From contig NZ_CP022657.1 in assembly GCF_002243515.1 (NCBI RefSeq), forward strand, positions 2,409,001-2,473,000: a DNA stretch of 64,000 bases, in the 5' to 3' direction. A program made the translations under genes and the position numbers. Numbering within the stretch: the stretch's first letter is position 1; every line of letters begins with the position of its first letter. Below the pieces are notes generated by a model. It saw only the letters and a program-made list of their open reading frames with translations. It made no database searches and was not told the origin of the DNA. The stretch comes from Tumebacillus algifaecis (GTDB lineage: Bacteria; Bacillota; Bacilli; Tumebacillales; Tumebacillaceae). Below, in pieces: positions 16,522 to 61,189 of the stretch.

Positions 16522-16598
16522 CCGCAAATGATGCCAAAGGGTGAGCAGGAGATCGACTTACTGTGCTTGCCCTGCGGCTCCCTTCGAGGAGGATAAGG

Positions 16599-34433: not shown

Positions 34434-34496
34434 CAAACCAGCGCCCCCCTCTATAACAATAACTTCTATTTATAATAACAATAAATAACTAAAATA

Positions 34497-35858: not shown

Positions 35859-36830
35859 CTAGCGAACATCACGTTGAGATACACCCGCGAGGAAGGTCAA
35901 CATAAATTGCACGGCCAGCCTTGACGTGACATTGCGCACATCAACGGTCGGGTCGATGCAGACAAAATCAAGCCCTTGCACCTGTGGTAGCGTGCCGAGG
36001 TGGTACAGCGCATCCATCGCATCCCACGGGTTCATCCCGCCCGTGCCGATCGCCGGACAACCGGGTGCAAACGCTTGGTCGATCACGTCCACGTCAAAGC
36101 TTACGTAGAGCACGTCAGTTCCGTCCCCTGCGATTTCAAGCGCTTGGGTCAAAATCGTCTCCATCCCTTGGCGATAGACGTCGCGAGCGGTATAGACGGT
36201 GACACCATGTCCGGTCACATAGTCGTGGTACGGCTTTGAGTTCATGAAGCCGCGAATGCCGATCTGCACGATATTCTTCCCGTCCACGATGCCCGATTCG
36301 AGGATGCCCCGAAACGGTGTACCGTTCGAGACGCCGCCATCCTCGAAGTTGCGCACATCATGGTGAGCATCAAAATGAATGATGCCGACCTTTTGGCCAG
36401 GATGGCGATCGACGAACGCTTTCATCGATGGGCATGTGATCGAATGGTCACCGCCAAAGATGATCGGGATCAGGTCAGGATGCTTTTGATAAAGTGCACG
36501 CAGGCTCGCTTCGATGCGGCGGTGTGACTCGGCGTTATCGGTGACGTGCATCTCGATGTCACCGAGGTCGCGTACCGCCAGACTTTGCAGATCCACCCCG
36601 TATTCGAGCGAGTAGGTGGTGAACGATTTAAAAGCGGTGCGAATGGCGGCCGGAGTGGTCGAGGCACCGGAGACGGAGATCGACGGCTTGGAAAGTGGAA
36701 TTCCGATCACGCCAGCCGTCAGTTGCTCCTCCCCGTCCCATGCCGAGATCCAACGAGCTACCTTCGTTTCCATCTGATCGCGGAATGCCGCTTGGTCCGG
36801 CGTTTTCAAGTGCGGGATCTCATGGCTCAT
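35859..36830 (-). CDS. hutG: Formimidoylglutamase (arginase/ureohydrolase family)
   Basis: A 323-residue enzyme for the last step of histidine use: N-formimidoyl-L-glutamate plus water gives glutamate and formamide. The binuclear manganese site of the ureohydrolase family is visible in GGDHSITCP, HFDAHHDVR and SFDVDVIDQAFAPGCP. Its ATG overlaps the hutI stop codon (ATGA), so the two are translationally coupled. As fourth gene in hutH-U-I-G order its role is secure, despite resemblance to agmatinases. Confidence 0.93.
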   Translation of the reverse strand: MSHEIPHLKTPDQAAFRDQMETKVARWISAWDGEEQLTAGVIGIPLSKPSISVSGASTTPAAIRTAFKSFTTYSLEYGVDLQSLAVRDLGDIEMHVTDNAESHRRIEASLRALYQKHPDLIPIIFGGDHSITCPSMKAFVDRHPGQKVGIIHFDAHHDVRNFEDGGVSNGTPFRGILESGIVDGKNIVQIGIRGFMNSKPYHDYVTGHGVTVYTARDVYRQGMETILTQALEIAGDGTDVLYVSFDVDVIDQAFAPGCPAIGTGGMNPWDAMDALYHLGTLPQVQGLDFVCIDPTVDVRNVTSRLAVQFMLTFLAGVSQRDVR

Positions 36831-38116
36831 CTTGCTTCCTCCTGCACAATCTGGCGCTCCCAGACTACGACTTGACCGTTTTTGATCACACCAAACGTGT
36901 GGTTGATGCCAAAATGGTACGGCAGGTACTTGATGTTCGGCGCGTCAAAAATCGCAAGGTCGGCACGCTTGCCCACTTTGATCGACCCGATGTCGGTCGA
37001 GCGGCCGAGCGCGTTGGCCGCATTGATCGTACAAGCGGTCAAAATCTCCTCCGGCGTCATCTTCAAGTTGAGCGACGCCAGTGCGATGATCAACTGAATC
37101 GACTCGGTTGGGCAGGAACCTGGATTGTAGTCGGTTGATAATGCGACCGGCAGGTTGTACTTGTCGATCATATCCCGGGCACGCGCATGGTTTTGCAAAC
37201 CGAGATTGAACGAAGTGCCTGGCAGAAGCACGGGCGTCACGCCATTGTCGGCCATCTCTTGCAACCCTTCATCGGTGGCCGCCAGCAGATGCTCTGCGGA
37301 GATCGCGCCGATTTCACCTGCCAGTTGCGCACCGCCGAGCGGTTCGATCTCATCGGCATGAATTTTCGGCATCAGGCCATTGCGCTTGCCTTCCATCAGG
37401 ATGCGTCGGGACTGCTCGACGGTAAACACTCCGTGCTCACAAAACACATCGCAAAATTCGGCGAGGAACTCATCGGCGATCTTCGGCAACATTTCGTTGA
37501 CGATCAGATCGACATACTCTTCGGTGCGTCCCTTGTACTCCGGCGGTACCGCATGTGCACCCATGAAGGTGGACACGATATCGACCGGATGCGTGTCATG
37601 CAATTGTTTGGCGACGCGCAACTGCTTCAGCTCATCGGTGGTGGTCAAGCCATAGCCGCTTTTCGCTTCAACTGTGGTTACGCCATTCAGGAGCATTTCG
37701 TTCAGGCTCTTGCGCGCTTTTTTGTACAGCTCCTCTTCGGAAGCGGCGCGAGTCGCTGTGACGGTCGAGAGAATCCCGCCGCCTTGCGCGAGAATCTCCA
37801 GATATGGCACGCCGGAGCGTTTCAGTGCCAGTTCGTGCTCCCGCGAGCCACCGTGCACGAGGTGCGTATGGGGATCGACAAGACCCGGTGTGACCAGACG
37901 GCCGCCGACATCGATCGTTTCAGCGATGGTGACGCCACGCAAGTTCTCCATCACTTCCGCTTCGGTTCCAACATGAACGATGCGCCCTTCGTGAATGGCC
38001 ACCGCCGCCGTTTCGATCTCGATCACCTCGTTCATCTCCGCGCCAAATCGCGGAGCATCGCCGGGCGGCGTGACCAGCCGCCCGATGCCGGTTACCAGCA
38101 AATCAAGTTGTTCCAT
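36827..38116 (-). CDS. hutI: Imidazolonepropionase
   Basis: A 429-residue amidohydrolase that opens imidazolone-5-propionate to formimidoylglutamate. The start MEQLDLL at 38116 is chosen because GAGGAGG stands 6 bp upstream; a start two codons earlier would touch the SD. VDPHTHLVHGGSREHE carries the metal-binding histidines, IHADEIEPLGGAQLA further ligands, and STDYNPGSCPTE the Asp. Length and motifs are standard. It sits between hutU (33 bp gap) and hutG (4-bp overlap). Confidence 0.95.
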   Translation of the reverse strand: MEQLDLLVTGIGRLVTPPGDAPRFGAEMNEVIEIETAAVAIHEGRIVHVGTEAEVMENLRGVTIAETIDVGGRLVTPGLVDPHTHLVHGGSREHELALKRSGVPYLEILAQGGGILSTVTATRAASEEELYKKARKSLNEMLLNGVTTVEAKSGYGLTTTDELKQLRVAKQLHDTHPVDIVSTFMGAHAVPPEYKGRTEEYVDLIVNEMLPKIADEFLAEFCDVFCEHGVFTVEQSRRILMEGKRNGLMPKIHADEIEPLGGAQLAGEIGAISAEHLLAATDEGLQEMADNGVTPVLLPGTSFNLGLQNHARARDMIDKYNLPVALSTDYNPGSCPTESIQLIIALASLNLKMTPEEILTACTINAANALGRSTDIGSIKVGKRADLAIFDAPNIKYLPYHFGINHTFGVIKNGQVVVWERQIVQEEAR

Positions 38117-38149
38117 GCTCATCCTCCTCGCTCGTTCTATCGCTAGCTA

Positions 38150-39817
38150 CTACTCTTGTTCGCGCATCGGGATGCGGATGCCGTGCGTTTCAGCCGTTTC
38201 GATCGCTTCGTCATAACCTGCATCGACGTGACGAATGACGCCCATGCCCGGGTCGGAAGTGAGCACAGCTTGCAGACGCTCCGCCGCTTCAGCGGTGCCA
38301 TCTGCAACGACGACCATTCCCGCATGCAACGAGTAGCCCATACCGACCCCGCCGCCATGATGTACCGAAACCCAGGATGCGCCTGCGGAGGTGTTGATCA
38401 GTGCGTTCAAGATCGCCCAGTCGCCCACTGCGTCAGAACCGTCTTTCATCGCTTCTGTCTCGCGGTTCGGTGAAGCGACAGAACCGCAGTCGAGGTGGTC
38501 GCGCCCGATGACGATCGGAGCCTTCAGTTCCCCATTTTTGACCATTTCGTTGATCGCCAGACCAAACTTGGCACGCTCGCCGTAACCGAGCCAACAGATG
38601 CGGGCCGGGAGACCTTGGAAGGCGATCTTTTCGCCTGCCATCTCGATCCAGCGGCGCAGGTGATCATTTTCTGGGAACAGCTTGAGGATCAGTTCGTCCG
38701 TCTTCTTGATGTCTTCTGGATCGCCAGACAAAGCCGCCCAACGGAACGGGCCTTTGCCTTCGCAGAACAGCGGACGGATGTAGGCCGGAACGAAACCTGG
38801 GAAGTTGAACGCGTCTTGGACCCCTTCATCAAGCGCCACTTGGCGGATGTTGTTGCCGTAGTCGAACACGGTGGAGCCGAGCTTTTGCAGGTCGAGCATC
38901 GCTTGGACATGAACGGCCATGCTTTGCTTGGCCAGGGCGATCAATTTGTCCGGGTCGCTTTGGCGCAGCGCTGCCGCTTCTTCCAATGAATAGCCTACCG
39001 GAATGTAGCCGTTCAGCGGGTCATGGGCCGATGTTTGGTCGGTGACAAAATCAGGCTTGATCCCGCGGCGTACAAATTCCGGATAGATTTCTGCAGCGTT
39101 GCCGAGCAGACCGATCGAAAGCGGACGTCCTTCCGCTTTGGCCTGATTTGCCAGTTCCAGCGCTTCGTCGAGCGTTGTCGCCATCACATCACAGTAGCGG
39201 TGTTGGATGCGGCGTTCGATGCGGGTCGGGTCAATCTCGACGGCGATGACTACGCCTTCGTTCATCGTGACAGCCAGCGGTTGCGCACCACCCATGCCAC
39301 CGAGCCCTGCGGTGAGGGTCAAGGTGCCTTTGAGCGTACCACCCGTCTGTTGGCGGCCTGCTTCAGCAAACGTTTCGTACGTGCCTTGCAGAATGCCTTG
39401 GGTACCGATGTAAATCCAAGAACCGGCCGTCATTTGGCCGTACATCATCAGACCCTTTTGCTCCAGTTCGCGGAAGTGCTCCCAATTCGCCCACGCCGGA
39501 ACGAGCACGGAGTTGGACAGCAGTACGCGCGGTGCGCGCTCATGCGTTTTAAAGACGCCGACCGGCTTGCCCGATTGCACGAGCAGAGTCTCATCGCTTT
39601 CTAGACGCTTCAGTTCACGGACGATCGCGTCAAAAGAAGGCCAGTTGCGCGCAGCTTTGCCGATGCCGCCGTAGACGACAAGGTCTTCCGGACGCTCTGC
39701 CACTTCCGGGTCGAGGTTGTTCATCAACATGCGCAAAGCGGCTTCCTGAACCCAGCCTTTTGCGTTCAATTCGGTACCGCGCGGAGCGCGGATTTCACGT
39801 TTTTGTTGGTTGGACAT
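38150..39817 (-). CDS. hutU: Urocanate hydratase
   Basis: A 555-residue NAD+-dependent enzyme converting urocanate to imidazolonepropionate. The N-terminal [20 protein letters not shown] and [13 protein letters not shown], and [18 protein letters not shown] (NAD site) are hallmarks of the family, and the length is typical. A perfect AAGGAGG precedes the ATG. It lies 36 bp after hutH. Confidence 0.97.
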
Positions 39818-39853
39818 ACGTAATTTCCTCCTTAGGATCGATCATTTCAACTC

Positions 39854-41389
39854 TTACATCAGTTCGCCGGAGATGTTTTCCACGGCTGTGATCCACTCGC
39901 CTTCTAACAGAGCCGCAGCCACCTTTTCAATATCATCGCTGGTCGAGCGATCGGTCAACACCGGCGCCACGATGCCGCGCAACAGGTCGTACAGCTTGCG
40001 CGTTGCCGGAGCCAGCCCGTCTGCGCCAACAAATTCGGCCGCTTCACCAGCACAGATCAGTTCGATGGCCAGAACTTTAGACACGTTGTCAATCACTTGA
40101 GCCGCATGGCGAGCTGCCGTCGTCCCCATCGAGACGTGGTCTTCCTGATTGGCAGAAGACGGGATCGAATCGACAGAAGCCGGATGGGCCAGAACTTTAT
40201 TTTCCGAGACGAGCGAAGCGGCCACATATTGCGGAATCATCATGCCCGACTCCATGCCCGGATTGTGGCTCAAAAACGCCGGAAGCTCGGAGAGGGCAGG
40301 GTTGACCAGTCGCTCCGTGCGGCGCTCCGAAATATTCGCCAACTCGCTCATGCCGATTTTCAAGAAATCCATTGCAAACGCGATCGGCTGTCCATGAAAA
40401 TTGCCGCCGGAGATGACTTTGCCTTCTTCCAAAAAGAGCAGCGGGTTGTCGGTCGCCGAGTTGATCTCGATGGAGATTTTGTCCGCGACATAGGACAACA
40501 CTTGACGCGATGCCCCGTGCACTTGGGGCAGGCAGCGCAGCGAGTAAGCATCTTGGACGCGGATCTCGCCTTGGCCTGTCGTCAGCTTGCTGCCTGCGAG
40601 CAATTTGCGCAGGTTGCTGGCCACACCAATCTGCTCCGGATACGGGCGGACACGATGCACCTCTTCCGAAAAAGCTTCCGGGATGCCGCGCAGACACTCG
40701 ACGGTAAGGGCGGCGATCATGTCGGCCGCCTTGGCGAGACGCTCCGCTTTCACGAAGGTCAAAGTGCCGATCGAAGTCATGATTTGGGTGCCGTTGATCA
40801 GGGCCAGACCTTCTTTGGCCTGCAACTGGATCGGGGTCAGACCGGCCTTCTGCAGAGCCGCTCCGCCAGAAAGGCGTTCCCCTTGGTAATACGCTTCCCC
40901 TTCGCCCATCAATACGAGCGCCAGATGCGACAGCGGTGCGAGGTCACCCGATGCGCCAAGCGAGCCTTGCTCCGGCACGACCGGGTGCACGCCATGATTG
41001 AGGCAATCGATCAGCAGTTGCAGCGTCTCGGTACGAATGCCCGAATATCCTTTTGACAGAGCGTTCGCGCGGAGCATCATCAGCGCGCGCACAGCTGGGA
41101 TCTCCATCGGCTTGCCAACAGCACAGGCGTGCGAGCGGATCAGGTTGACCTGCAGTTGTGCAGCGTCTTCCGGCGAAATCTGTACATCGCTAAATTTGCC
41201 GAACCCGGTAGTGACCCCGTAGACCACCTTCCCAGTCCGTACCAACTCCTCGACCATCTCTCGACAGTCCTTGACGCGCTGCCATGCCTCATCGGCCAGC
41301 GCGACCGGAGCATTTTTAAAGGCGACCTGCGCCACATCTTGCGCCGTCACCTGCACCCCGTCCAACATCACGGTTGTCATCTCTTCCAT
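39854..41389 (-). CDS. hutH: Histidine ammonia-lyase
   Basis: A 511-residue lyase removing ammonia from L-histidine to give urocanate. The self-made MIO cofactor arises from Ala-Ser-Gly in GSLGASGDLAPLSH (about residues 140-153). VYGVTTGFGKF (catalytic Tyr loop) is near residue 55. AAAGGGG precedes the ATG. The tandem order with hutU, hutI and hutG shows a catabolic role rather than an aminomutase for peptide synthesis. The leader carries a large hairpin (41422-41463) between promoter and start codon, hinting at attenuation; no hutP gene is seen. Confidence 0.97.
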   Translation of the reverse strand: MEEMTTVMLDGVQVTAQDVAQVAFKNAPVALADEAWQRVKDCREMVEELVRTGKVVYGVTTGFGKFSDVQISPEDAAQLQVNLIRSHACAVGKPMEIPAVRALMMLRANALSKGYSGIRTETLQLLIDCLNHGVHPVVPEQGSLGASGDLAPLSHLALVLMGEGEAYYQGERLSGGAALQKAGLTPIQLQAKEGLALINGTQIMTSIGTLTFVKAERLAKAADMIAALTVECLRGIPEAFSEEVHRVRPYPEQIGVASNLRKLLAGSKLTTGQGEIRVQDAYSLRCLPQVHGASRQVLSYVADKISIEINSATDNPLLFLEEGKVISGGNFHGQPIAFAMDFLKIGMSELANISERRTERLVNPALSELPAFLSHNPGMESGMMIPQYVAASLVSENKVLAHPASVDSIPSSANQEDHVSMGTTAARHAAQVIDNVSKVLAIELICAGEAAEFVGADGLAPATRKLYDLLRGIVAPVLTDRSTSDDIEKVAAALLEGEWITAVENISGELM

Positions 41390-41681: not shown

Positions 41682-42563
41682 TTACAGATCGACCATCTCG
41701 CCGTACGTCTCCGGACGACGATCGCGATAGAATTGCCATTTTTGGCGGACTTCGTAGATCATCTGCTTGTCCATCTCTGCTACCAGCACTTCATCCTGAT
41801 CGCGAGCTGCGACCGCAACCATCTCGCCGCGCGGGTCGGCGAGGTACGATTGACCATAGAACTCGCCCATGTTCCACGGCGCTTCCACGCCAACACGGTT
41901 GATCGCCGCGATGTAGTACCCGTTTGCCACCGCATGGGCAGGCTGTTCTAGCTTCCAAAGGTACTCGGAAGTGCCTGCTACGGTCGCTGACGGGTTAAAG
42001 ACGATCTCCGCGCCTTTGAGCCCCAGCACGCGAGCACCTTCTGGGAAGTGGCGGTCATAACAGATGTAGACGCCGACTTTGGCATATCGGGTGTCAAATA
42101 CGTTGTACCCGAGATTGCCCGGTTTGAAATAGTATTTTTCCCAGAACCCGTGCGGCGGCTCGCCAGCCTCGACGTGCGGGATGTGATGCTTGCGGTATTT
42201 ACCGAGGTAACTGCCATCTGCATCGATCACCGCAGCGGTGTTGTACAGCGTACCGATGCCTTCTTTTTCATAGATCGGCAGGATGATGACCACTTCCAGT
42301 TCCTTTGCCAGCTTCATAAACAGTTGCGTGGTCGGACCCTGTGGAATTTCTTCGGCCGCTTCGTACCATTTCGGAGTTTGTTCTGCGCAGAAGTAAGGGC
42401 CGTAGAAGATCTCCTGCAGGCAGATGATCTTAGCGCCTTGCGAGGCGGCGTCGCGCACCATTTTGATGTGCTTGGCGATGGCCACCTCCTTGTGCACCGC
42501 AACCGGTTCGTCACCGTGAATTTCATGTTTGGCTTGGATAAGGCCGATTTTGACTTTGTGCAT
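41682..42563 (-). CDS. Beta-ureidopropionase (N-carbamoyl-beta-alanine amidohydrolase), nitrilase superfamily
   Basis: A 293-residue carbon-nitrogen hydrolase for the last step of reductive pyrimidine breakdown: N-carbamoyl-beta-alanine (or the beta-aminoisobutyrate analogue) to the free beta-amino acid, CO2 and ammonia. The start MHKVKIGLIQ at 42563 is supported by TAGGAGG. The Glu-Lys-Cys triad is visible: CLQEIFYGPYF, GKYRKHHIPH and VGVYICYDRHFPEGAR. It begins 16 bp after the hydantoinase and is the last gene of the run that starts in the synthetase genes, so its product would be free beta-alanine. Confidence 0.9.
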   Translation of the reverse strand: MHKVKIGLIQAKHEIHGDEPVAVHKEVAIAKHIKMVRDAASQGAKIICLQEIFYGPYFCAEQTPKWYEAAEEIPQGPTTQLFMKLAKELEVVIILPIYEKEGIGTLYNTAAVIDADGSYLGKYRKHHIPHVEAGEPPHGFWEKYYFKPGNLGYNVFDTRYAKVGVYICYDRHFPEGARVLGLKGAEIVFNPSATVAGTSEYLWKLEQPAHAVANGYYIAAINRVGVEAPWNMGEFYGQSYLADPRGEMVAVAARDQDEVLVAEMDKQMIYEVRQKWQFYRDRRPETYGEMVDL

Positions 42564-42579
42564 GGTCGTACAATACCTC

Positions 42580-43965
42580 CTAGGGGCGCTTAAATTTGTT
42601 GCGGCGAATGAAGCGTCCATTGCCTGCCGTACCGACAAATTGTTTGTCGCGAATGACATAGGTGCCGCGCGACAGCACAGAGACCACTTCACCGTGAACT
42701 TCCATGCCTTCAAACGGATTGTAGTCAACGTTCATGTGATGCGTGGTGGCCGAGATCGTGCGGGTGACTTCCGGATTGAAGATGACGATGTCAGCATCAG
42801 AACCGACGGCGATCGTGCCTTTTTTCGGGAACATGCCAAACAATTTGGCCGACTTGGTCGAAGTGATGTCAACAAATTGGTTCAACGAGATGCGCCCTTT
42901 GTGCGCCCCTTCCGAGTACAGGATGCCAAAGCGGTCTTCGATCAGCGGGCCACCGTTCGGAATCTTGGTGAAGTCACCTTTGCCAAGATCTTTTTGCCCT
43001 GCGAAGTTAAACGAACACTGGTCAGAGCCGACCGTTTGCAGAATTCCGTTTTTCAAGGCGCTCCACAGCACCTCCTGGTTCCACTTTTCACGCAACGGCG
43101 GCGACCAGACGTATTTGGCACCTTCAAAGTCCGGTTTTTCCAGACTGGTGATGTCAAGCGTCAGGTACTGCGGGCACGTCTCGCCGTAGACATTCAAGCC
43201 GCGCTCGCGAGCTTCCGCGATGCGCTGTACCGCTTCGGAACAAGAAACATGCACCACATAGAGCTGAGAGTCGGCCAGCGCCGTCAGCGCGATCGCGCGG
43301 CCTGTCGCCTCCCCTTCTGCCACTGGAGGACGGGTATGGGCGTGATAGATCGGGTCTGTGTTGCCTTTTTCCAGCGCTTCCTTGATCAGATAATCGATGA
43401 CATCACCATTTTCAGCATGCACTTGTACCAGCGCGCCCAGTTCTTTCGCGCGGATCAGCGTTTTGAACAGCGTTTCATCGTCCGCTTGGAACACATTTTT
43501 GTAGGCCATAAACACTTTCAGGGACGTGATGCCCTCTTCGTTCACCACCTGCTCCAACTGTTGCAGGACGCTGTCGTTCGCTTCAGCGATCATCAGGTGG
43601 AACCCGTAGTCGATCACCGCTTTGTGATCCGCTTTGGCATGCCAAATTTTGATCGCATCATTCAAGGTCTGGCCTTTGCTGGTCAAGCAAAAGTCGATGA
43701 TCGTCGTCGTGCCACCAAACGCGGCAGCCCGAGTGCCCGTTTCAAAATCATCGGCTGTCGTCGTGCCGCCAAACGGCATGTCGAGGTGGGTGTGCGGGTC
43801 GATGCCGCCCGGGAAGAGATAGCATCCGGAAGCATCGATCACTTCCGCATCGGTCACGTCCAACTTCTGTCCGATCGCGACGACGCTCTCGCCATCGATC
43901 AGCACGTCCGCTTGGTAGGTGTCGGCAGCGGTGACGACGGTGCCGCCTTGGATCAGCTTTTTCAT
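42580..43965 (-). CDS. hydA: Dihydropyrimidinase / D-hydantoinase
   Basis: A 461-residue amidohydrolase opening dihydrouracil or dihydrothymine (and hydantoins) to N-carbamoyl-beta-amino acids. The start MKKLIQGGTVV overlaps the preA stop by ATGA and has AGAGGGG upstream. Metal ligands are visible in FPGGIDPHTHLDMPFGG, the Lys to be carbamylated in ITSLKVFMAYK, His in VQVHAENGD and YVVHVSCSE, and the Asp in VGSDQCSFNF. The location between preA and the beta-ureidopropionase fixes the pathway. Confidence 0.95.
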   Translation of the reverse strand: MKKLIQGGTVVTAADTYQADVLIDGESVVAIGQKLDVTDAEVIDASGCYLFPGGIDPHTHLDMPFGGTTTADDFETGTRAAAFGGTTTIIDFCLTSKGQTLNDAIKIWHAKADHKAVIDYGFHLMIAEANDSVLQQLEQVVNEEGITSLKVFMAYKNVFQADDETLFKTLIRAKELGALVQVHAENGDVIDYLIKEALEKGNTDPIYHAHTRPPVAEGEATGRAIALTALADSQLYVVHVSCSEAVQRIAEARERGLNVYGETCPQYLTLDITSLEKPDFEGAKYVWSPPLREKWNQEVLWSALKNGILQTVGSDQCSFNFAGQKDLGKGDFTKIPNGGPLIEDRFGILYSEGAHKGRISLNQFVDITSTKSAKLFGMFPKKGTIAVGSDADIVIFNPEVTRTISATTHHMNVDYNPFEGMEVHGEVVSVLSRGTYVIRDKQFVGTAGNGRFIRRNKFKRP

Positions 43966-45227
43966 CTGGCAGTTCCCCTCTCTTGTACCAATTCGCCCCA
44001 CGTCATGTGCGGTTTGCCAGTGTCCACCGGAATCATGTCGATGGCACCGTCCACCGGGCAGACCAGCGAACACAGATTGCAGCCGACACAGTCATCTTCG
44101 CGCACTTGCAGGATCTGCTTGCCGGTCGCTTTGTCTTCCACACGGTCGATGCACTGGTGGGACGCGTCCTCGCAGGAGATGTAGCACTTGTTGCAGTTGA
44201 TACACGTCTCCGTGTTGATGCGGGCTGTCACTTTGTAGTTCAGGTTCAACGAGCCCCAGTCGGACATGGTGTGCACCGATTTGCCGACGATCTCGCTGAC
44301 CGAATCGATTCCTTTTTCATCCAAATAGTTGTTGAGGCCATCGATCATATCTTCGACGATGCGGAAGCCGTGATGCATGACGGCGGTGCAGACCTGTACG
44401 TTCGTCGAGCCCATCAGCATAAATTCGACCGCATCGCGCCAACTCGAAATGCCGCCGATGCCAGAGATCGGCAGTGCGACCTGCGAGTCATGGGCGCATT
44501 CTGCGACCATGTTCAGCGCGATCGGTTTGACCGCCGGGCCGCAATAGCCGCCGTGTGCGCCTTTGCCGTCCACGTTCGGTTGCGGCAGCCACGAGTCGAG
44601 ATCGACACCGATCAGCGAGTTGATCGTGTTGATCAAGGAGATCGCATCGGCCCCGCCTTCGCGTGCAGCGCGGGCCGTGTAGCGGATGTCGGTGATGTTC
44701 GGCGTCAGTTTGACGATCACAGGCGTCGTCGCCACCTCTTTGATCCACTCCGTCTGTTGACGCACCAGCTCGGGATGCTGCCCGACGGCCGCCCCCATGC
44801 CGCGCTCCGCCATGCCGTGTGGACAACCGAAATTGATTTCGAGGCCGTCCACCCCGACCGCTTCCACCCGCTTGACGATCTCATGCCAGACTTCGCGAAC
44901 CGGGTCAACCATCAGCGAAGCAACCAAGGCCCGGTCAGGAAAACGCTTTTTCACTTCGGCCATCTCTTTTAAGTTCACTTCTAGCGATCGGTCGGTGATC
45001 AACTCTATGTTGTTCAGCCCCATCAGCCGCTGTGTGCCAACGCGATAGCCGCCAAAGCGGGAGGAGACGTTGACGATCGGGTCGCCGAGCGTTTTCCAGA
45101 CCGCGCCGCCCCAACCTGCTTCAAAGGCGCGCAGGACTTGGTAGCCGGTGTTGGTCGGAGGTGCTGAGGCCAGCCAAAACGGGTTGGGCGACTTGATGCC
45201 GCCCAGTTCAATGCGTAAATCGGCCAT
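43962..45227 (-). CDS. preA: NAD-dependent dihydropyrimidine dehydrogenase, subunit PreA
   Basis: A 421-residue flavin and iron-sulfur subunit reducing uracil or thymine to the 5,6-dihydro form. The N-terminal 300 residues are a dihydroorotate dehydrogenase-like FMN barrel (LASAPPTNTGY, LEINFGCPHGM, ISGIGGISSW). The C-terminal part holds two 4Fe-4S motifs (CINCNKCYISC and CVGCNLCSLVCP). AGAGGAGG precedes the ATG. It follows preT by 15 bp and overlaps hydA. Confidence 0.96.
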   Translation of the reverse strand: MADLRIELGGIKSPNPFWLASAPPTNTGYQVLRAFEAGWGGAVWKTLGDPIVNVSSRFGGYRVGTQRLMGLNNIELITDRSLEVNLKEMAEVKKRFPDRALVASLMVDPVREVWHEIVKRVEAVGVDGLEINFGCPHGMAERGMGAAVGQHPELVRQQTEWIKEVATTPVIVKLTPNITDIRYTARAAREGGADAISLINTINSLIGVDLDSWLPQPNVDGKGAHGGYCGPAVKPIALNMVAECAHDSQVALPISGIGGISSWRDAVEFMLMGSTNVQVCTAVMHHGFRIVEDMIDGLNNYLDEKGIDSVSEIVGKSVHTMSDWGSLNLNYKVTARINTETCINCNKCYISCEDASHQCIDRVEDKATGKQILQVREDDCVGCNLCSLVCPVDGAIDMIPVDTGKPHMTWGELVQERGTAR

Positions 45228-45242: not shown

Positions 45243-46604
45243 TTATACGGACAATGCGGCGGTGCTATGCAGCGCTTCATGGATCGAGCGTGCCGCCTGT
45301 TTGCCTTGTTGAGCGGCCGACACGACCATCGCGTCGGTGCCGCCTTGACCGCCGAAAATAAAGTCGCCAGCTGCGTAGACGCGCGCGCGGGACGTTTCCA
45401 ACGTCGCTTTGTTGAGCGTCGGAATGCCATGCTCATGCTGAAGTCCAAACGCTTCGATCAAAGGTAGCAAGCGGGTTTGACCGATCGCTTTGATCACAAA
45501 ATCAACTTCGATCGTCTTTTCGCTCCCTGCTACTGGCGTAGGTCTGCGGCGGCCCTTCTCATCCGCTTCCCCAAGTTCCATCCCGATCATCTCCACTGCG
45601 CTCACATGTCCGCCTGCACCCAAAATGCGGGTCGGCGCGCTCAACCAGCGGAACTCAACCCCATCTTGTTTGGCAAATTCGTACTCGAAGTCATAAGCGG
45701 TCATCTCATGTTCGGTGCGGCGGTAGTAAATCTGCACCACTTCGGCCCCGAGCCGCTTGGAGCAGGTTGCGGCGTCGATCGCCGTATTTCCCGCCCCGAT
45801 CACCGCCACTTTTTTGCCGACCATTGCGTCGGTCAGCTCCTTGGTTTTCGTATCTTCTACAAAGGCGATCGCGTCGAGCACACCGTCCAACTCTTCGCCT
45901 TCGATGTGCAGTTGCGGCACGGCCCCCATGCCCGGTGCGAGCAAGACCGCATCAAAGCTGGCCAGCAGTTCATCGGCGGAGATATCAGTGCCGACGCGCA
46001 CCCCATAGCGGAACGCAACGCCGAGCGCTTCCACCTGCTCCACCTCCCACTGCGGAATCTCCTGCGGGAGACGGAACGAGACGATGCCGTAGGTGTTGAG
46101 GCCACCTGCACGCTCTTTTGCCTCGAAGACGGTGACCGCGTACCCAAACCGTGCCAATTCGCGGGCGGCAGAAAGTCCGGCTGGACCCGCTCCGACCACC
46201 GCCACACGCAGACCGTTCGATTCCCCAGCTTGAAAGAGCGGCGTTTGCGCCTGCATCGCCCAATCGGTGACATGGCGCTGGAGCAGGCCGATGAGGATCG
46301 CTTTGTCCGATTCACCATTCAGGACGCACGCGCCTTCACAGAGTTCGGACGTAGGGCAGACCCGGGCGCAAGACGCGCCGATCGGATTGGCTTCCATGAT
46401 CGTGCGCGCAGAGCCAAGGAGATTGCCCGTGGCGATTTTTTTGATAAACGACGGGATGTCGATGCCCGTCGGACACGCATGCATGCAAGGAGCATCATAG
46501 CAGTACAGGCAACGGTTCGCTTCGTCCAACACCTCTTTTGGACGCAGCGGCGGCATGACTTCGTAAAAGTTAACGTTCAGCTTCGTGAGCGGATTCGCCA
46601 TCAT
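45243..46604 (-). CDS. preT: NAD-dependent dihydropyrimidine dehydrogenase, subunit PreT
   Basis: A 453-residue FAD- and iron-sulfur-binding electron-input subunit that takes electrons from NADH for PreA. N-terminal cysteine clusters (CLYCYDAPCMHACPTGID and CARVCPTSELCEGAC) bind Fe-S. The FAD motif is VVGAGPAGLSAARELA and the nicotinamide motif VIGAGNTAIDAA. The start is an ATG-ATG pair: the first overlaps the NRPS stop codon as ATGA, the second as TGATG, with a G6 stretch as SD inside the NRPS gene. Ribosomes finishing the synthetase could thus restart on preT. Confidence 0.95.
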   Translation of the reverse strand: MMANPLTKLNVNFYEVMPPLRPKEVLDEANRCLYCYDAPCMHACPTGIDIPSFIKKIATGNLLGSARTIMEANPIGASCARVCPTSELCEGACVLNGESDKAILIGLLQRHVTDWAMQAQTPLFQAGESNGLRVAVVGAGPAGLSAARELARFGYAVTVFEAKERAGGLNTYGIVSFRLPQEIPQWEVEQVEALGVAFRYGVRVGTDISADELLASFDAVLLAPGMGAVPQLHIEGEELDGVLDAIAFVEDTKTKELTDAMVGKKVAVIGAGNTAIDAATCSKRLGAEVVQIYYRRTEHEMTAYDFEYEFAKQDGVEFRWLSAPTRILGAGGHVSAVEMIGMELGEADEKGRRRPTPVAGSEKTIEVDFVIKAIGQTRLLPLIEAFGLQHEHGIPTLNKATLETSRARVYAAGDFIFGGQGGTDAMVVSAAQQGKQAARSIHEALHSTAALSV

Positions 46605-49600
46605 CGTCCCCCCATCGGTCGGCTGCGATCGATCCGCTTGATCATCCCAGCACCGCCATCACTTACGGCCGTGCCTTTTCTAGATTCGATCTTCGCCGCG
46701 ATTCCTTCGACAGTCGCCACTTCAAACAGGTCGCCTAAACTGTATTCAATCTTGTGCGCCTCTTTCACACGAGAGACGAACATCGTCGCTAACAAGGAGT
46801 GACCCCCGCGTTCAAAGAAGTTGTCGGCCGCCCCCACTTGCTCGATTCCGAGCAGTTCGCCAAACATCGCAGCCACTTGCTCCTCCAATTCGGTGCGCGG
46901 CTTGATATACGGGCGGTTGGCCGAAGTCAACACGCCACCTGGTGCCGGAAGTGCTTTGCGATCGATCTTGCCGTTGGCGTTGAGCGGAAACTCCTGAAGT
47001 GTGACGAAAACGGCTGGCACCATATATTCGGGCAGCGTTTGCTTCAAGAAGTCGCGCAGTAATGCCTCATCGGGCGTCTGACCAGGCTCGGCGACCAGAT
47101 AGGCGGCGAGGTTTTTCTCCCCTTGGTGTTCAAAGACGGTCAGCACCGCCTCTTTGACCTGTTCATGGCGGACGAGCACCGTTTCGATCTCGCCAATCTC
47201 AACGCGGAACCCGCGGATTTTCACTTGACCGTCCATCCGCCCGAAGAATTCGATGTTGCCATCGGGGAGGAAGCGCACCAAGTCGCCCGATTTGTAGCGC
47301 CGCTCGCCGTTTACGGTGATAAATTTCTCCGCGGTCAGCTCTTCACGGCCATAATACCCGCGCGTAACACCAAGACCCGCGATGTGCAGTTCGCCCGGTA
47401 CGCCGAGCGGAACCTCTTTGCCAAAGCGGTCACACACATAGAGCTGTGCGTTCGCGCAGCGCGTGCCGATCGTATATTTTTCACCTTCTTGACCGCGCTT
47501 TGCCAAGTATTCGGTCGCGAAGATCGACGTTTCGGTCGGACCGTACAACACGTACGACTCTGCATTGTGGAAGACTTCGTTCATGTCTTTGAGCAGCTGT
47601 GGCGACACCACATCGCCCGCCGAATAGAGCTGACGGAGCTTGTCAAAATTGGCGCCGTTCTCTTTCGCCTTCCGTCCAGCATCGACGATTTGGCGCATCA
47701 GACTCGGCACTGCATGCATGGTGGTGACTTCTTGCAACTCTTCGGTCAAGAGTTCTAGGTTGGTGATGTGCGCGCGGGTCAACACCTTCACACGAGCGCC
47801 GATCAGCAAGGGGTTCATCACTTCGAACAGCGAAACGTCAAAGGCAACCGAGACGACCCACGTCATCACATCGTCTGCAGTAAAGCCGCACGTCTTCTGC
47901 ATCGCGAACAAAGTGGAAAGCAGTTGGTGATGCTCGACCGCCACCGCTTTCGGAGTTCCGGTCGAGCCTGATGTATAGATCAGATAGGCCAGATTTTGCG
48001 ATGTGACATCAGTGACCAAATTATCGGTCGCATAGCCGGAGAGCGTTTCCCCGTCCGTGTCGAGGCAGATCAGGCGGGCGTCGTGAGCGGGGAGCTCTTG
48101 CGCCAGATGAGACTGCGTGACCATGACCGACGCTTTCGTATCCTGCAAAATGAATGCAGTGCGCTCCGCCGGGTTGCTCGGATCGATCGGCACATAGGCG
48201 GCCCCTGCTTTGAGAATCCCCAGCTCCGCCACGATCAGATCGATGGAGCGCTCGACGCATAGCGTGACGAGCGACTCGGTGCCGATGCCAAGCGTTTGCA
48301 GATGGCGAGCCAACTGGTTCGCGCGAGCATTCAGCTCGCGGTACGTCAAGGTCTGTCTTTCGCATTCTACTGCGATGTTGTCCGGTGTGCGTGCCGCCTG
48401 CTCTTCGATCAAGCGGTGGACACAGCTGTCGGCCGGGGCAGGCAGTTCACCGTTCCATGTTTTGAAAAGTTGCTGTTCCGCATCTGTCAGCATCTGCAGA
48501 TCATAGACCGGAGTGTCCGGGTTGTCTAAGAGGCTGGAGACCAGGTGGGTAAAATGTTCGGCCATGCGAGCGATCGTGCTCTCTTCAAACAGGTCGGTAC
48601 AATATTCGAAGCCACAGAGCAGTCCATCCGGCAGTTCCGAGCAGAAGAGCGACAGGTCAAATTTTGCAGTGCCGCTTTCGTGTGGGACTGTCGATAAGGT
48701 CACATCTTGCAAGTGCACTTCTTCGCGCGGCGTGTTTTGCATCGCAAAAAACACTTGGAACAGCGGCGAGTACGTGCGGTTGCGCTCCGGCTGCAATTCT
48801 TCGACCAGCTTTTCAAACGGGAAGTCCTGGTGTTCAAATGCATCGAGCGCATCTTTTTGGACGCGTTGCAACAGATCGCGGAAGCTTACGTTTTCCGACA
48901 GGTCGGCACGCATGACCAGCGTGTTGACAAACAGCCCGATCAACTTTTCGATGCCGTTGACGTTGCGCCCTGCGATCGGTGTGCCGACCCAGATGTCCTC
49001 CTGTCCGGTCCAACGGGCCAGCAGAACGTTGAAGGCAGCAAGCATTGTCATAAACATCGTCACGCGTTCCTGCTGATTAAAGTCTTGGAGCTTTTTCAAC
49101 AGATCGCCTGAAAGCATGTGCTTGTAAACTGTCCCGCGATAGCTTTGCACGACCGGGCGTTGCTTGTCGGTTGGCAGTTGTAGGATTGGCATCGAGCCGC
49201 CCAGTGTGTTTTTCCAATAGGAAAGCTGTTTCTCCAGCACGTCCCCGGTCAAGTAGTTAAACTGCCATTCTGAGAAATCTGCGTATTGGATCGTCAAGTC
49301 TGGCAGCGGAGAAGGTTGTCCTTTCGCGAACGCTTCGTAGATCGCCGCAAGTTCGGTGAAGAACACCCCCATCGACCAGCCGTCGGAGATGATGTGGTGC
49401 ATCGTGATCAGCAGCATGTGATCATCTGCAGCCAGTCGCAACAGGCGGGTTCGGACCAGCGGTGCCTGTTTGATCAGAAACGGCCGCGCAAATTCTTCTT
49501 TCGCCAGCTCCTGCGCTTTTGGAAAGCGCTCCTCGAGCGGAAGATACTGAAGATCGGTGATCGGAATCTCGACCACAAGCTCCGCGTTGACCAGCTGTTT

Positions 49601-49843
49601 CAAACCATCCTCCAACATTTCGAACGACGTGCGCAGCGTTTCGTGGCGGTAGATCATTTCATTGATCGTGTCGGTCAACGCGTCCAGATCGAGCTTCCCT
49701 TGCAGCCGCACAGCATTTGGCATGTTGTAAAACGGGTTGCCCGGCGAAAATTGATCGAGCACCCACATGCGCTGTTGGGCAAAGGAGGCGCGAAGTTCAT
49801 AAACTTCATCCTCATGAATCGTGTGTGTATTTGAAGTTGTCAA
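46601..49843 (-). CDS. NRPS single module C-A-T
   Basis: A 1080-residue synthetase starting at TTG with AAAGGA 9 bp upstream (no ATG fits). Domains are C (HHIISDGWS near residue 147), A (FDVSLFE near 665, YGPTETSIF), and T (RGGHSLLAT near 1010). The code read by eye is DVFHYALIFK, which I cannot assign. This A domain belongs to an unusual subtype with HAVPSLMRQIVD that recurs in the NRPS at 61888. There is no TE and only a short basic tail (IDRSRPMGGR). It begins 34 bp after the 2181-residue NRPS, and its stop overlaps preT, placing synthetase and pyrimidine pathway in one operon. Confidence 0.95.
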   Translation of the reverse strand: MTTSNTHTIHEDEVYELRASFAQQRMWVLDQFSPGNPFYNMPNAVRLQGKLDLDALTDTINEMIYRHETLRTSFEMLEDGLKQLVNAELVVEIPITDLQYLPLEERFPKAQELAKEEFARPFLIKQAPLVRTRLLRLAADDHMLLITMHHIISDGWSMGVFFTELAAIYEAFAKGQPSPLPDLTIQYADFSEWQFNYLTGDVLEKQLSYWKNTLGGSMPILQLPTDKQRPVVQSYRGTVYKHMLSGDLLKKLQDFNQQERVTMFMTMLAAFNVLLARWTGQEDIWVGTPIAGRNVNGIEKLIGLFVNTLVMRADLSENVSFRDLLQRVQKDALDAFEHQDFPFEKLVEELQPERNRTYSPLFQVFFAMQNTPREEVHLQDVTLSTVPHESGTAKFDLSLFCSELPDGLLCGFEYCTDLFEESTIARMAEHFTHLVSSLLDNPDTPVYDLQMLTDAEQQLFKTWNGELPAPADSCVHRLIEEQAARTPDNIAVECERQTLTYRELNARANQLARHLQTLGIGTESLVTLCVERSIDLIVAELGILKAGAAYVPIDPSNPAERTAFILQDTKASVMVTQSHLAQELPAHDARLICLDTDGETLSGYATDNLVTDVTSQNLAYLIYTSGSTGTPKAVAVEHHQLLSTLFAMQKTCGFTADDVMTWVVSVAFDVSLFEVMNPLLIGARVKVLTRAHITNLELLTEELQEVTTMHAVPSLMRQIVDAGRKAKENGANFDKLRQLYSAGDVVSPQLLKDMNEVFHNAESYVLYGPTETSIFATEYLAKRGQEGEKYTIGTRCANAQLYVCDRFGKEVPLGVPGELHIAGLGVTRGYYGREELTAEKFITVNGERRYKSGDLVRFLPDGNIEFFGRMDGQVKIRGFRVEIGEIETVLVRHEQVKEAVLTVFEHQGEKNLAAYLVAEPGQTPDEALLRDFLKQTLPEYMVPAVFVTLQEFPLNANGKIDRKALPAPGGVLTSANRPYIKPRTELEEQVAAMFGELLGIEQVGAADNFFERGGHSLLATMFVSRVKEAHKIEYSLGDLFEVATVEGIAAKIESRKGTAVSDGGAGMIKRIDRSRPMGGR

Positions 49844-49877: not shown

Positions 49878-52800
49878 CTACTTGCGAGTTCGCTTCGTGC
49901 TGGCCATGCGGTCTCTGACCGCGATTTTCGGCTGGGCGAACTCCTGCTCGTCAGCGGTTCGAATCTGTTCAATCAAGGCGGCCACCTCTTCGATTGTCAC
50001 CGCTTCAAACAGTTGTTTGAGCGGCAGGACAACGCCGAAGCTTTGCTGAATGGCCGTATGCACATGGGTCGCCAATAGTGAATGCCCACCGATTTCAAAA
50101 AAGTTATCGTGAACGCCAATCCCCTCTGTGCGCAGCAGCTGCTGCCAGATTTCGGTCAACCGTTGCTCCGTCTCACTCCGCGGTGCGACGTACGCCCGCT
50201 CTGATGCGGTCGTGCGCTCGGGCACAGGGAGTGCATTGCGGTCGATCTTCTGGTTTGGCGTCAATGGAAACGCGCGCAAGAAAACAAAGTTGCTTGGCAC
50301 CATATAATCGGGCAGTTTGTCTTTGAGCAGGGCGCGCAGCTCGCTGACAGTGGGTGCCTCCTCTGCCGCGATCAGATAGGCGACGAGTCGCTGATCTCCA
50401 GGTGCATCTTCACGGAGCAAAACGAGCGCATCGCTGATCTCCGTATGGCTTTGCAAGACCGCCTCGATTTCCCCCGTCTCGATCCGGAAGCCACGCAGTT
50501 TGACCTGATGGTCGATCCGGCCGTGGAAATCGATCTCACCGTTTGGCAACCAGCGGGTGAGATCGCCCGTTTTGTAGAGCCTTCCATACGGGCTCTCGAT
50601 AAAAGTTTTGGCCGTCAGTTCTTCGCGGTTCAGGTAGCCGCGAGCAAGTCCTACCCCTCCGATGTACAGTTCCCCTGGCACGCCGACCGGAACTGGACGC
50701 AGCGCCCGATCGAGGATGTACAGTCGGTTGTTGGCAAGCGGTCGTCCGATCGGAATCACCTGTGGGTCCGCGGTAAGTTCGACCCGCCAATAGGAAGCGA
50801 AGATACATGCTTCGGTGGGACCGTACATGTTGTAGATCTGTGCGGAGGGCAGTGACTCGGTAATGCGGGCACAAAGCTCATAGGACAACGGTTCTCCTCC
50901 GCACAATAGGTTGCGTAACGACGACCAGTTCCTGAATCCCGCCTGATCGACCAGCAACTTGACCTGCGACGGCACGGTGATGAAAAAGCTGATCTGCCGC
51001 TCTTGCGAAACTTCGAGCAGATACGCTGCATCCGTATGACGTCCCGGTTCTGCGATGACCAGTTCCCCGCCGATCAAGAGCGGCGCGAACAGCTCAACGA
51101 CCGAAACGTCAAACGAAAACGGCGTTTTCAGCAAAAAGCGATCCTGCTCGGTCAAGGAGTTCGTATCGATGAGCCAACGTGTGTTATTGACCACGGAGCG
51201 GTGTGAGAGCATCGCCCCTTTTGGACGACCCGTTGAGCCAGAGGTGTAGATCACATAGGCAAGGTTGTCCGGAGTGACTTGCACCGCCGGAGCGACAGCG
51301 CTCTCCGCTGCGACCAGATCCCACTCGCTATCCAAAGCGATCACGTTCGCCGCTCCTGCATGCGCGGCCAGACGCTCGCGCAGATGGGACTGGGTCAGCA
51401 ACACCGCCGCCTGCGCGTCTTCGATCATGAAGGCGAGACGGTCGTTTGGATAGTCTGGGTCGAGCGGGACGTAGGCACCGCCCGCCTTCAACACCCCATA
51501 GACGGCAACGATCATCTCCAGCGACCGCTCCGTGCAGATTCCGACGCGCACATCGGGGCCGACACCGAGCTTCTGCAGATGGTGTGCCAGTTGGTTGGAA
51601 CGCGCTTGCAGTTCGCCATAGGTCGTGCACTGCTCTTGGTAGCGCAGCGCGATCGCATCAGGCGTTGCATCCGCTTGGCGGTCAAACCATTCGTGAAGGG
51701 TCAATTCCGCCTCCGGTACTTCTCGCTCCGTTTGGTTCCATTCGACGATGATTTTCTCCTCTGCTGTTGCTGAGATCAGGTTGTAGTCACAGATTTGTCG
51801 GTCGATGTTCTCGGTGATGCTTTGCAACAAGCTACAGAAGTGAGCGAGCATCGATTCGATCGTCGCCCGATCAAACAGATCGGCATTGTATTCGAACACC
51901 CCGCGCAGACCGTTTTCGTTATCGACCATGTTGACAACAAAATCGTAGTCGATCGATTCCTTTTCCACGCCGAGGCGCGTCAGCATCATGCCTGGCAACT
52001 GCACCTTCAGCCCTTCCACCTGTAGCGCGGAGCCCGGCGTATTCAACAGGGCGAACACCGCCTGCACCAGCGTGGCATGGGAGGTGCTGCGCTCTGGCCG
52101 CACCTCTTCGACCAGTCGTTCAAACGGCACGTCCTGATTCGCATAGGCGTCGAGCGTGGTACGTTTGACGCGGGCGAGCAGGTCGCGAAACGTCGGATTG
52201 CCAGACAGATCGGTGCGCAGCACGATCGTGTTGACGAAAAATCCGATCAGCCCTTCCACCTCTTCACGGGTGCGGTTGGCCACAGGCGAGCCGAGCAAGA
52301 TGTCATCTTGGCCGGAATAGCGCGACAACAGCGTGTTGAACGCCGCGAGCAACAGCATGTACAAAGTGACCCCTTCTTGCTGGCAGAGCTTGTGCAGATC
52401 GTCTGACAGCGTTCTCGGCACTTCAAACGCCAACGATTGGCCTCGAAAGGTCTGAGCGGCTGGCCGCGGCCGATCGGTCGGCAGTTGCAGGACGGGCAGC
52501 GAGCCAGCTAGCTGCTCGCGCCAATAGGTGAGCTGTTCTTGGAGCAGTTCACCTTGTAGCCACTCGCGCTGCCACACGGCAAAGTCAGCATATTGAACGG
52601 GCAATTCGGCAAGCTGTGACGGCTTGCCATGCGCATGGTGATCGTACAGGTCCAGCGTCTCCTGATAGATGCGGCTCATCGACCAGCCATCGGTGATGAT
52701 GTGATGCATGATCAGCACCAAGATGTGGTCTGCTTCTGACAAGCGCAGAAGCGTCAGCGAAAAGGGAGGCACTACATCTAGCTGGAACGGTCGTTTGTAC

Positions 52801-55800
52801 AGTTCAGCGATGCGTTGCTGCGCATGCGGGAATCGCTCCGATTCGGGCAGGTCTTGCAGGTCGATCAAATCGAGTGTCCGCGGCTGGTACGGCAGTATTT
52901 TCTGCACCAGTTTGCCTTCTGTCATCAGGAAGGTGGTACGCAGATTTTCATGGCGGGAGATCAGATCATTGAACGCCGCCTGCAGAGCAGCCAAGTCGAT
53001 CGCGCCTTCGATGCGTACGACTTCCGGGATGTGATAGGTCGGCGTGCCTGGAGAAAGTTGTTCGAAGAACCAGAGACGCTCCTGCGACGATGACATCGGC
53101 AATTGCTCGGTGCGGGGCTGTGGTAGCACTGGCCGTGTCTGCACACCGCGCGTGTCCCGCTTCGCCACTTCGATCTGTACTGCCAACGCGTGAAGCGTCG
53201 GCGTTTCAAAAAAGAGTTTTAACGGCAACTGCACATCGAACGCTCGGCGCACGCGCGATAAGATTTGCGTCGCCAACAGCGAGTGACCGCCAAGCTCAAA
53301 GAAATTTGCCGTGGCGCTCACCCGTTCCAAGCGCAGCACTTCCTGCCAAATCCCAGCCAATTCCGCTTCGACGCCAGTGCGTGGCGCCACAAACGTCTGC
53401 TCTGCCAGTCCTTGACCTCGATCGGGCGCCGGAAGCGCCTGTCGATTGACCTTCCCGCTTGGTGTGAGCGGCAAAGCATCGAGCATGACGAACGCAGACG
53501 GCGCCATATATTCGGGAAGTTTGTTGAGCAAAAAGAGTCTCAGGTCACCTGCGCTCAGCTCTCGTCCCACATGTGCGACCGTGTAAGCGACGAGGCGCTT
53601 CTCGCCTGGGATGTCTTCGCGGGCGGTCACGACTGTCGAGTGCACTCCGTCATGTTGAACCAGTGCCGCTTCAATCTCACCCAGCTCGATGCGGAAGCCG
53701 CGTATCTTGACCTGATTGTCGATTCGTCCCAAATACTCGATGTTGCCGTCTGGCAACCAGCGCACGATGTCCCCCGTCTTGAACAGACGTCCTGTCCCAA
53801 ACGGATTGGGCACAAACCGTTCCGCCGTCAAATCGGGCCGCTGATAATACCCTCGTGCCAACACAGCACCGCCAGCGTGCAATTCGCCTGGCACGCCGAT
53901 CGCAGTCTGCTGCATGTTGCGGTCGAGGATGTAAAGTTCTGCGTTGGCAATCGGACGTCCGATCGGGATGTTGACCGCATCATGCGACACCGCTTCCGTC
54001 TCGTACCAGGTGACATCGGCCGCGACTTCGGTCGAGCCATATAGATTGAGCAAAAGCGCTGTCGGCACCGCTTTTTGGAAGCGCTGCGTCAGTTCGACCG
54101 TCAGCGCTTCCCCACTGCAAACCCAAAAGTTCAGGTCGGGCAACTCTTTTTGCAGATCGTCATAGCTGTCAAGCAACGCGCGCAATAAGGACGGCACGAG
54201 CACGATCCGTGTCACGCGTTGCGTTCGCAGGGCCGGAACAAAGTGCTCAATGTCTTTGACTGCCAAATCAGAGAAGATCACGAGCGGCACGCCTTGCAGG
54301 AGCGGCCCCCAGATCTCCCAGATCGAATCACCGAAATTGAGCGACGTTTTCTGCGCGCACACCTCGCCCGAAGCAAACGGGTAACGCTCCCACATCCAGT
54401 GGAAGCGGTTGACCATCGCGCGGTGCGTGCCTTCGACCCCTTTCGGTTGGCCTGTCGAGCCCGACGTGTAGAGGACGTACATCACGCTGCCGGCGTCCGA
54501 TTTGACGTCCAGCCCCGCCGTGCTCTCCTTGGCGATTTCAGCCCAGTCGGCATCGAGGCAAATCGTTTGGGCATCGTGAACGGGCAGTCGCTCGAGCACG
54601 CTGGCTTCGGTGAGCAACAGGCGGACAGCAGAGTCCTGCAACATGTACGCTTTGCGTTCCTCCGGATAGCCGGGATCGATGGGAACATACGCTGCCCCCG
54701 CCTTGAGAATGCCGAGCAGCCCGATGATCATGGCAGGCGTTCGCTCCATCGAAATCCCGACCAGCGTTTCCCTCTCCACGCCCTGCTTCTGCAGGAATCG
54801 CGCCACTTGGTTCGCCCGCTCCTCCACTTCGCGAAAGGACAAGCTCTCATTTTCAAACAGGAGCGCAGGGGCATCTGGCGTTCTTGCGGCTTGCGCGGCA
54901 AACAGTTCAGGCACCGTCGCATCCTTTGGAAAATCGGCGGTCGGCCCGTTCCATGCTCCGGCACACAAATCGATCTCCCGCTCAGTGAGCAAAGACAGCG
55001 TGGCGATCGGTTGGTCGGCATCGCTCAAGATGCTGTGCAACAAGTTTTGGAAGTGTGCACCCATGCGTTCGATCGTCGCTCGGTCGAACAGGTCGGTGTT
55101 GTATTCGAATTTCACGAGCAGTCCCGCCTCTTTTTGCATCACATAAAGCGAGATGTCAAACTTGGACGTACCGCTGTCCAATTCGCGGGCTTGCAACTGC
55201 AAACCTGGCAGTTTCAGCTCGGGCACTGGGGCATTTTGCAATGCGAACAACACTTGGAACAACGGGGAAAAGCTCATGTTGCGCTCAGGTTGCAGGTGCT
55301 CGACCAATTTTTCAAATGGCAGGTCCTGGTTGGCAAACGCGCCGACCGCCGTCTGTTTCACGCGGGAGAGCAGACTGCGAAACGACAGGTCACCGCTGAC
55401 ACCTGTGCGCAGGACGATCGTGTTGACAAAAAAGCCGATCATCCCTTCGATCTCCGCTTTGTTGCGGTTGGCGATCGGGGAGCCTACTGAGATGTCCTCC
55501 TGCATGGTATAGCGATAGAGCAATACTTTAAAGGCGGATAGCAGTGTCATGTAAAGCGTGACATCTTCTCGTTTGCTGAACGCTTCTAAGCGCTGCTCCA
55601 ATGCTTTGGGCACCCAAAAATCGTACGTTGCACCTGCAAAAGTCTGCATCGCCGGGCGCGGGCGGTCGGTAGGCAGATGAAGGGTCGTCAAGCCTTGGCC
55701 CAGCTGCTCCTGCCAATATCCAAGCTGCTTTTGCAACACCTCGCCTTGCATCCATTCCCGCTGCCAGTGTGCAAAATCGCCGTACTGCACGGGAAGTTCG

Positions 55801-61027: not shown

Positions 61028-61189
61028 CTTCAAAATGCCTCCTGACGGTGCCTGAGTTCTTCAGTTAATCTTGATAAAAATTAAGAAACCGTTATTTTCC
61101 TTGCTCCTCTTCATATTCTTTGTTCTAAAATCGGAAACCTCCTTAAAGCGCTTAATTTATTACCGAATTGTCGAAATAAATCCGATCAA

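Follow-up and report, generated by a model that had tools for sequence, protein, structure and literature searches.

A pathway for the reductive degradation of pyrimidines has probably been rewired in Tumebacillus to feed β-alanine (or β-aminoisobutyrate) to a PKS-NRPS assembly line, where both the substrate and the coupling of the two gene sets are inferred. In a more specific form of this reading, towards which we lean only slightly, a complete nucleobase-degradation pathway was captured by the PKS-NRPS operon through the swap of one end, with translational coupling at the seam. The genes lie on the minus strand of a 64,000-nucleotide stretch of Tumebacillus algifaecis DNA (hereafter the window). 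This genome (G000) was compared with T. avium AR23208 (NZ_CP021434.1; G001), a further Tumebacillus genome (G002) and two genomes of a sister genus (G003 and G004). The megasynthase genes are as follows:

56447..61033, minus strand: type I PKS module KS-AT-KR-ACP, first gene of the predicted operon
49878..56423, minus strand: NRPS of 2181 aa, C-A-T-C-A-T
46601..49843, minus strand: NRPS of 1080 aa, C-A-T, last megasynthase gene before preT

Gaps of 23 nt (PKS-NRPS) and 34 nt (NRPS-NRPS) separate them, and no thioesterase is present among the domains of the 1080-aa protein, which leaves release from the assembly line unaccounted for and counts against the proposed scheme. The PKS gene is intact here and in G002; in T. 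avium it is split into two overlapping ORFs of 1398 and 154 aa (G001:C1:3991576-3996185) by a frameshift or sequencing error. In the relatives, the space between an upstream thioesterase-ended NRPS gene and the PKS gene holds one or two opposite-strand genes for secreted-like proteins (G001:C1:3990198-3991373 and G002:C1:587268-589652); the window has an 854-bp gap there. This layout suggests a separate transcription unit beginning at the PKS gene. A scan for promoters and terminators returned fewer terminator-like sites than shuffled sequences and a weak excess of promoter-like sites. The PKS-NRPS and the reductive pyrimidine pathway would form one operon, read as a single transcript from the PKS gene to pydC. 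The pyrimidine genes are:

45243..46604, minus strand: preT, NAD-binding subunit of dihydropyrimidine dehydrogenase; best PDB match 4ylf
43962..45227, minus strand: preA, catalytic subunit of dihydropyrimidine dehydrogenase; NF006183 at 678 bits (cut-off 335)
42580..43965, minus strand: hydA, dihydropyrimidinase / D-hydantoinase; TIGR02033 at 690.7 bits (cut-off 393); 1yny
41682..42563, minus strand: pydC, carbon-nitrogen hydrolase, beta-ureidopropionase-like by its PDB matches

The reductive route leads from uracil through dihydrouracil and N-carbamoyl-β-alanine to β-alanine, and the Pyd enzymes take both pyrimidines, uracil and thymine. PreT aligns with residues 54-509 of pig DPD, the N-terminal half, and PreA with residues 531-856; no NCBIfam model reached its cut-off for PreT, whose best PDB match was deposited as dihydropyrimidine dehydrogenase subunit A. 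For PydC no family model scored over its cut-off. Its best PDB matches include human β-ureidopropionase (8pt4, 6ftq) and a fly relative (2vhh), and its closest solved relatives also include N-carbamoylputrescine amidases, for which family it scored below the cut-off; its position in the operon supports the β-ureidopropionase identity. With spacings of 15 nt (preT-preA), -4 nt (preA-hydA) and about 16 nt (hydA-pydC), the four genes make up what appears from their sequences to be a complete uracil-to-β-alanine set, in which the PydC step is putative. PreTA would reduce uracil, the dihydropyrimidinase would open the ring and PydC would release β-alanine, and thymine would yield β-aminoisobutyrate through the same enzymes. 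An earlier, sequence-only reading of this DNA had called preT a catabolic dehydrogenase. This was half right, as preT is no lone gene but opens a complete set which is probably biosynthetic here.

HydA, as a D-hydantoinase homologue, and PydC, as a member of the nitrilase superfamily, are both broad in substrate, which would also suit a role in tailoring the product, where amidohydrolase and amidase would open or trim a cyclic ureide, hydantoin or carbamoyl group and supply no monomer. This is highly improbable, given that PreT and PreA are subunits of a pyrimidine-reducing enzyme and that no member of the canonical set is missing or out of pathway order. A requirement of the operon for the β-alanine of CoA was also considered and rejected, since panD occurs in all seven genomes examined. 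PanD could moreover already supply β-alanine, which counts against a dedicated supply.

The last NRPS gene and preT, both on the minus strand, meet in a stop/start overlap with these elements:

46603-46601, minus strand: NRPS stop TGA, end of the 1080-aa ORF that runs from 49843 to 46601
46599..46604, minus strand: ATGATG, the NRPS TGA lying over two preT ATGs
46608..46613, minus strand: GGGGGG, putative Shine-Dalgarno (SD) sequence within the NRPS gene

On the plus strand the junction reads gcc atcatcgtccccccatcgg, which is ccgatGGGGGGacgATGATGGCGAAT on the minus strand. The TGA overlapping two successive preT ATGs, as originally described, was recovered in both the letters and the ORFs of the minus strand, and the G6 proposed as a ribosome site inside the NRPS gene was found at 46613-46608. 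The first preT ATG (46604-46602) overlaps the NRPS stop by 4 nt (ATGA), and the second (46601-46599), in frame with the first, overlaps it by 1 nt (TGATG). At the place of the G6, T. avium and G002 carry GAGGAGG, and in all three Tumebacillus species the ribosome site, here the G6, leaves a spacing of 3 nt to the first ATG and of 6 nt to the second. Duplex energies, computed with a standard 16S tail and not with the host genome's own, were -9.3 to -10.7 kcal/mol here, -11.6 in G001 and -15.1 in G002, the G6 pairing less well than the GAGGAGG of the relatives. Of the 55 preT loci with a recognisable SD, 48 have it 4-8 nt from the start codon, and the PreT start of the sister genus (MSLQDNF, pattern MSLxxNF) corresponds to the second ATG, from which T. 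avium PreT would read MSLNVNF. Given the 6-nt as against 3-nt spacing and this match, the second ATG, which forms TGATG, is the likelier start.

Comparison of the junction in related genomes, suggested in the sequence-only reading, shows that it holds within the genus: the identical ATGATG junction occurs in T. avium (gaggaggcaaATGATGAGC, also given as gaggaggcaaATGATG) and in G002 (gaggaggcagATGATGAAC, also given as gaggaggcagATGATG). The protein ends on either side drift, with DRSRPMGGR (here), DRGALRGGK (G001) and DRSQLRGGR (G002) at the NRPS C-terminus and MMANPLTKLNVNF (here), MMSLNVNF (G001) and MMNLNVNF (G002) at the PreT N-terminus. The ATGATG overlap has thus been kept in three Tumebacillus species while the adjoining codons changed, and conservation in three species is more than chance. 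A sequencing error at the junction, raised earlier as a possible undoing of the observation, is unlikely because the two relatives agree. Common descent accounts for the junction in the three species, however, and it therefore counts as one inherited event; the three genomes are not independent cases.

The overlap had further been held to be unexpected and to be strong evidence of coordinated expression. The former is not supported, since according to PMC10666635 spacings of -4 and -1 nt are by far the commonest among co-directional genes of 1,695 prokaryotic species, and hence the default. Two other pairs in the same gene string, preA-hydA and hutI-hutG, likewise overlap by 4 nt, and a rough count over the cluster stretches of the three Tumebacillus species, which missed preA-hydA owing to start-codon choice, found a spacing of -4 nt in four of 54 co-directional pairs. 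As the commonest spacing between genes, the overlap alone was rejected as evidence. Because it is of this commonest type and stems from a single inherited event, it supports co-expression but is by itself unremarkable.

Short overlaps are known to couple translation (PMC6728339 and PMC10666635). On this precedent, ribosomes ending the last NRPS gene would restart on preT across TGATG/ATGA, and the pathway would be produced together with the assembly line in time and place. It is also conceivable, if rather unlikely, that the overlap is functionally meaningless and that ribosomes enter preT at its own ribosome site, independently of the NRPS gene. An independent start of this kind could come from any good ribosome site, which counts against coupling; the GAGGAGG of the relatives is a strong one, and no stable structure hides the site, as no special RNA structure was found at the junction (z-score 0.09). 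A search of the 64-kb window found no Rfam family. Set against independent translation are the use in Firmicutes of strong SD motifs for reinitiation and de novo starts alike (PMC6728339) and the retention of ATGATG amid changing codons.

The order PKS-NRPS-NRPS-preT-preA-hydA-pydC is found in all three Tumebacillus genomes. Among 80 named preT loci from other genomes, at which up to 6 kb of upstream DNA was inspected (shorter on some contigs), only that of T. avium has an NRPS upstream. Outside Tumebacillus, preT following an unrelated gene, which the sequence-only reading had named as a finding that would speak against it, is the rule (79 of the 80), and the NRPS-preT junction is for this reason a Tumebacillus-specific innovation. 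In both sister-genus genomes the genes run MMSDH (CoA-acylating), class-III aminotransferase, preT, preA, hydA and pydC, adjoining a PucR-type regulator gene in G003; this is the usual operon that passes β-alanine to central metabolism. The place of MMSDH and aminotransferase upstream of preT holds the PKS-NRPS genes in Tumebacillus. Members of the two families exceeding curated cut-offs were found in only G003 and G004 of the seven genomes. Neither is over its family cut-off anywhere in the three Tumebacillus genomes, from which orthologues are likewise absent, the closest proteins there being paralogues about 32-39% identical. Other class-III aminotransferases (about 36% identity) are present in the Tumebacillus genomes and might still degrade β-alanine. 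In the origin that we propose, the assembly line would have taken the place of the β-alanine-consuming genes upstream of preT, so that a once catabolic route came to supply a precursor, and with the consuming enzymes gone (at family cut-offs) β-alanine would not be drained.

The same layout could have arisen by hitch-hiking, if an assembly line moved upstream of preT, displaced the aminotransferase and dehydrogenase genes and left the pyd genes on its promoter for nitrogen scavenging, with no part in the product. We consider this unlikely. It gains from the overlap type being the default for adjacent genes (PMC10666635), from the hut genes in the same region and from an NCS1 nucleobase-type permease gene directly after pydC in G001 and G002, which fits uptake and degradation. 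Nucleobase uptake fits precursor supply equally well, however, and hitch-hiking sits poorly with the loss of both β-alanine-consuming families, with a β-type A domain fixed beside exchanged ones and with an arrangement conserved in three of three Tumebacillus species. The permease has no relative in this genome (genome-wide, E<=1e-30), and uracil would therefore come via another carrier or from internal RNA turnover. The neighbour of pydC in the window is instead:

35859..41389, minus strand: hutHUIG, histidine utilisation, 292 bp or less after pydC

Only in this species do these genes follow pydC directly; in the relatives they lie in the same region, with the start of hutH about 19 kb (G001) and 7 kb (G002) past the post-pydC permease. 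They were rejected as part of the system, being distant in G001 and G002, with hutH present in all seven genomes and the adjacency here secondary. After its permease, T. avium has a different NRPS, with 40.6% identity to the 2125-aa NRPS encoded elsewhere in the window.

Precursor supply as the preferred reading draws on the first adenylation domain (A1) of the larger NRPS in the operon:

53718..54479, minus strand: A1 core of the 2181-aa NRPS, code GDWLVSLADK, beta-amino-acid type, probably beta-alanine

The code is identical in all three Tumebacillus species; it was read by motif alignment, with which a HMMER alignment to LgrA agrees, and its final Lys is assumed as usual. In α-amino-acid A domains, Asp235 binds the α-amino group (PMC11355689). 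A1 lacks Asp235, carries Asp at 236 and 331 and has a SLAD-like second half of the code, and the A1 domains of the three species are the only ones without Asp235 among 39 adenylating domains from the clusters. Its best plasmid-borne relatives (46-57% identity) have the codes VDWLISLADK, VDWLISLANK, VDSLISLADK, VDWLVSQADK and similar. We liken GDWLVSLADK to VDWVISLADK, which we take to be the classic β-alanine code, and for which no confirming text was found in the open-access literature searched. From codes of this kind and the Asp235 rule, the substrate of A1 is probably β-alanine, which this domain would load onto the assembly line. An A1 core search of 398 genomes of the class (E<=1e-50) matched only the three Tumebacillus genomes, although absence elsewhere is not firm because at most nine candidates were scored in most genomes.

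A comparison of this species with T. avium gave 82-88% identity for the A1 region but only 22-58% for A2 of the same protein, the code of which changes from DVVTLGMIFK to DLFTNALTYK, which indicates that this neighbouring domain has been exchanged. The 1080-aa NRPS also changes its A-domain code between the two species. With A1 kept and A2 diverging in this way, only the β-type module is fixed; the peptide would therefore vary elsewhere while the β-alanine module and the supply genes stay together. Within the supply explanation, the unit could instead be β-aminoisobutyrate from thymine, or another β-amino acid, a sub-case that seems distinctly unlikely. It is favoured by the acceptance of both pyrimidines by the Pyd enzymes. 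Thymine-derived β-aminoisobutyrate has also been proposed as a unit of surugamide F and the cadasides (PMC7459860) and of the kasichelins (PMC12305651). Against it, GDWLVSLADK is nearest to codes of the β-alanine type, in a comparison that held no β-aminoisobutyrate-specific domain.

Elsewhere in the window, a tryptophan 2,3-dioxygenase-like gene (16563-17288, plus strand; PF03301 at 76.5 bits) lies about 40 nt after a thioesterase-ended NRPS gene of 4563 aa. It is the window's second instance of an NRPS gene with a catabolic gene after it, and its enzyme may supply a kynurenine-type unit, as in daptomycin clusters. A 13-bp tandem repeat, CCTTATTGCTTTG, is present in 14 copies (27874-28056) immediately after the 2125-aa NRPS gene (28059-34436, minus strand), and the matching region of G001 and G002 holds long low-complexity repeat ORFs. 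The 2125-aa NRPS has two A, two T and two C domains and appears to end in a condensation domain, without carrier or thioesterase after it.

If precursor supply is correct, uracil or thymine would be a dedicated source of a peptide building block, and the locus would be a full in-operon example of a route hitherto only proposed for other natural products. Canonical enzymes and a β-type A domain would stand together in one predicted operon, and at least one genome that carries it, that of T. avium AR23208, is complete and named. The locus would also be a clear example of a catabolic operon becoming biosynthetic through the exchange of a single end, and would offer a handle for predicting the product of the PKS-NRPS.

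Precursor-supply genes in biosynthetic clusters are of an already known kind. The reductive pyrimidine operons of Bacilli (aminotransferase, MMSDH, preT-preA-hydA-pydC) encode the four enzymes in the order seen in Tumebacillus, with 68-84% identity in the sister genus, but have the two β-alanine-consuming genes upstream, where Tumebacillus has PKS-NRPS-NRPS and lacks both families genome-wide at the cut-offs used. Coupled gene pairs with short ATGA/TGATG overlaps have the same overlap length, internal SD and co-directional genes (PMC6728339 and PMC10666635); the class enriched among them is subunits of one complex, whereas the Tumebacillus pair joins a megasynthase to a metabolic enzyme. The kirromycin/aurodox (PMC9361827) and cryptophycin (PMC7459860) clusters likewise hold a dedicated β-amino-acid supply gene, in their case an aspartate decarboxylase serving β-alanine or methyl-β-alanine. 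There the unit comes from decarboxylation of aspartate or methylaspartate and not from pyrimidine reduction, and the code reported for AurB of aurodox, DTLQLGVIWK, is unlike that of A1. Searches of the open-access literature turned up neither a canonical PreTA-HydA-PydC set within an NRPS operon nor any account of this Tumebacillus cluster; the genus appears only in passing in the NRPS/PKS papers found there. The nearest parallels are the clusters for surugamide F and the cadasides (PMC7459860) and the kasichelins (PMC12305651), for which β-amino acids derived from pyrimidines (β-aminoisobutyrate or β-alanine, from thymine or uracil) were proposed earlier as parts of NRPS products and which likewise combine NRPS genes with putative pyrimidine-degradation genes. 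Their aldehyde dehydrogenase, hydrolase and (for the cadasides) P450 are assigned only by analogy, whereas Tumebacillus has the canonical, complete PreTA-HydA-PydC set, overlapping the NRPS gene.
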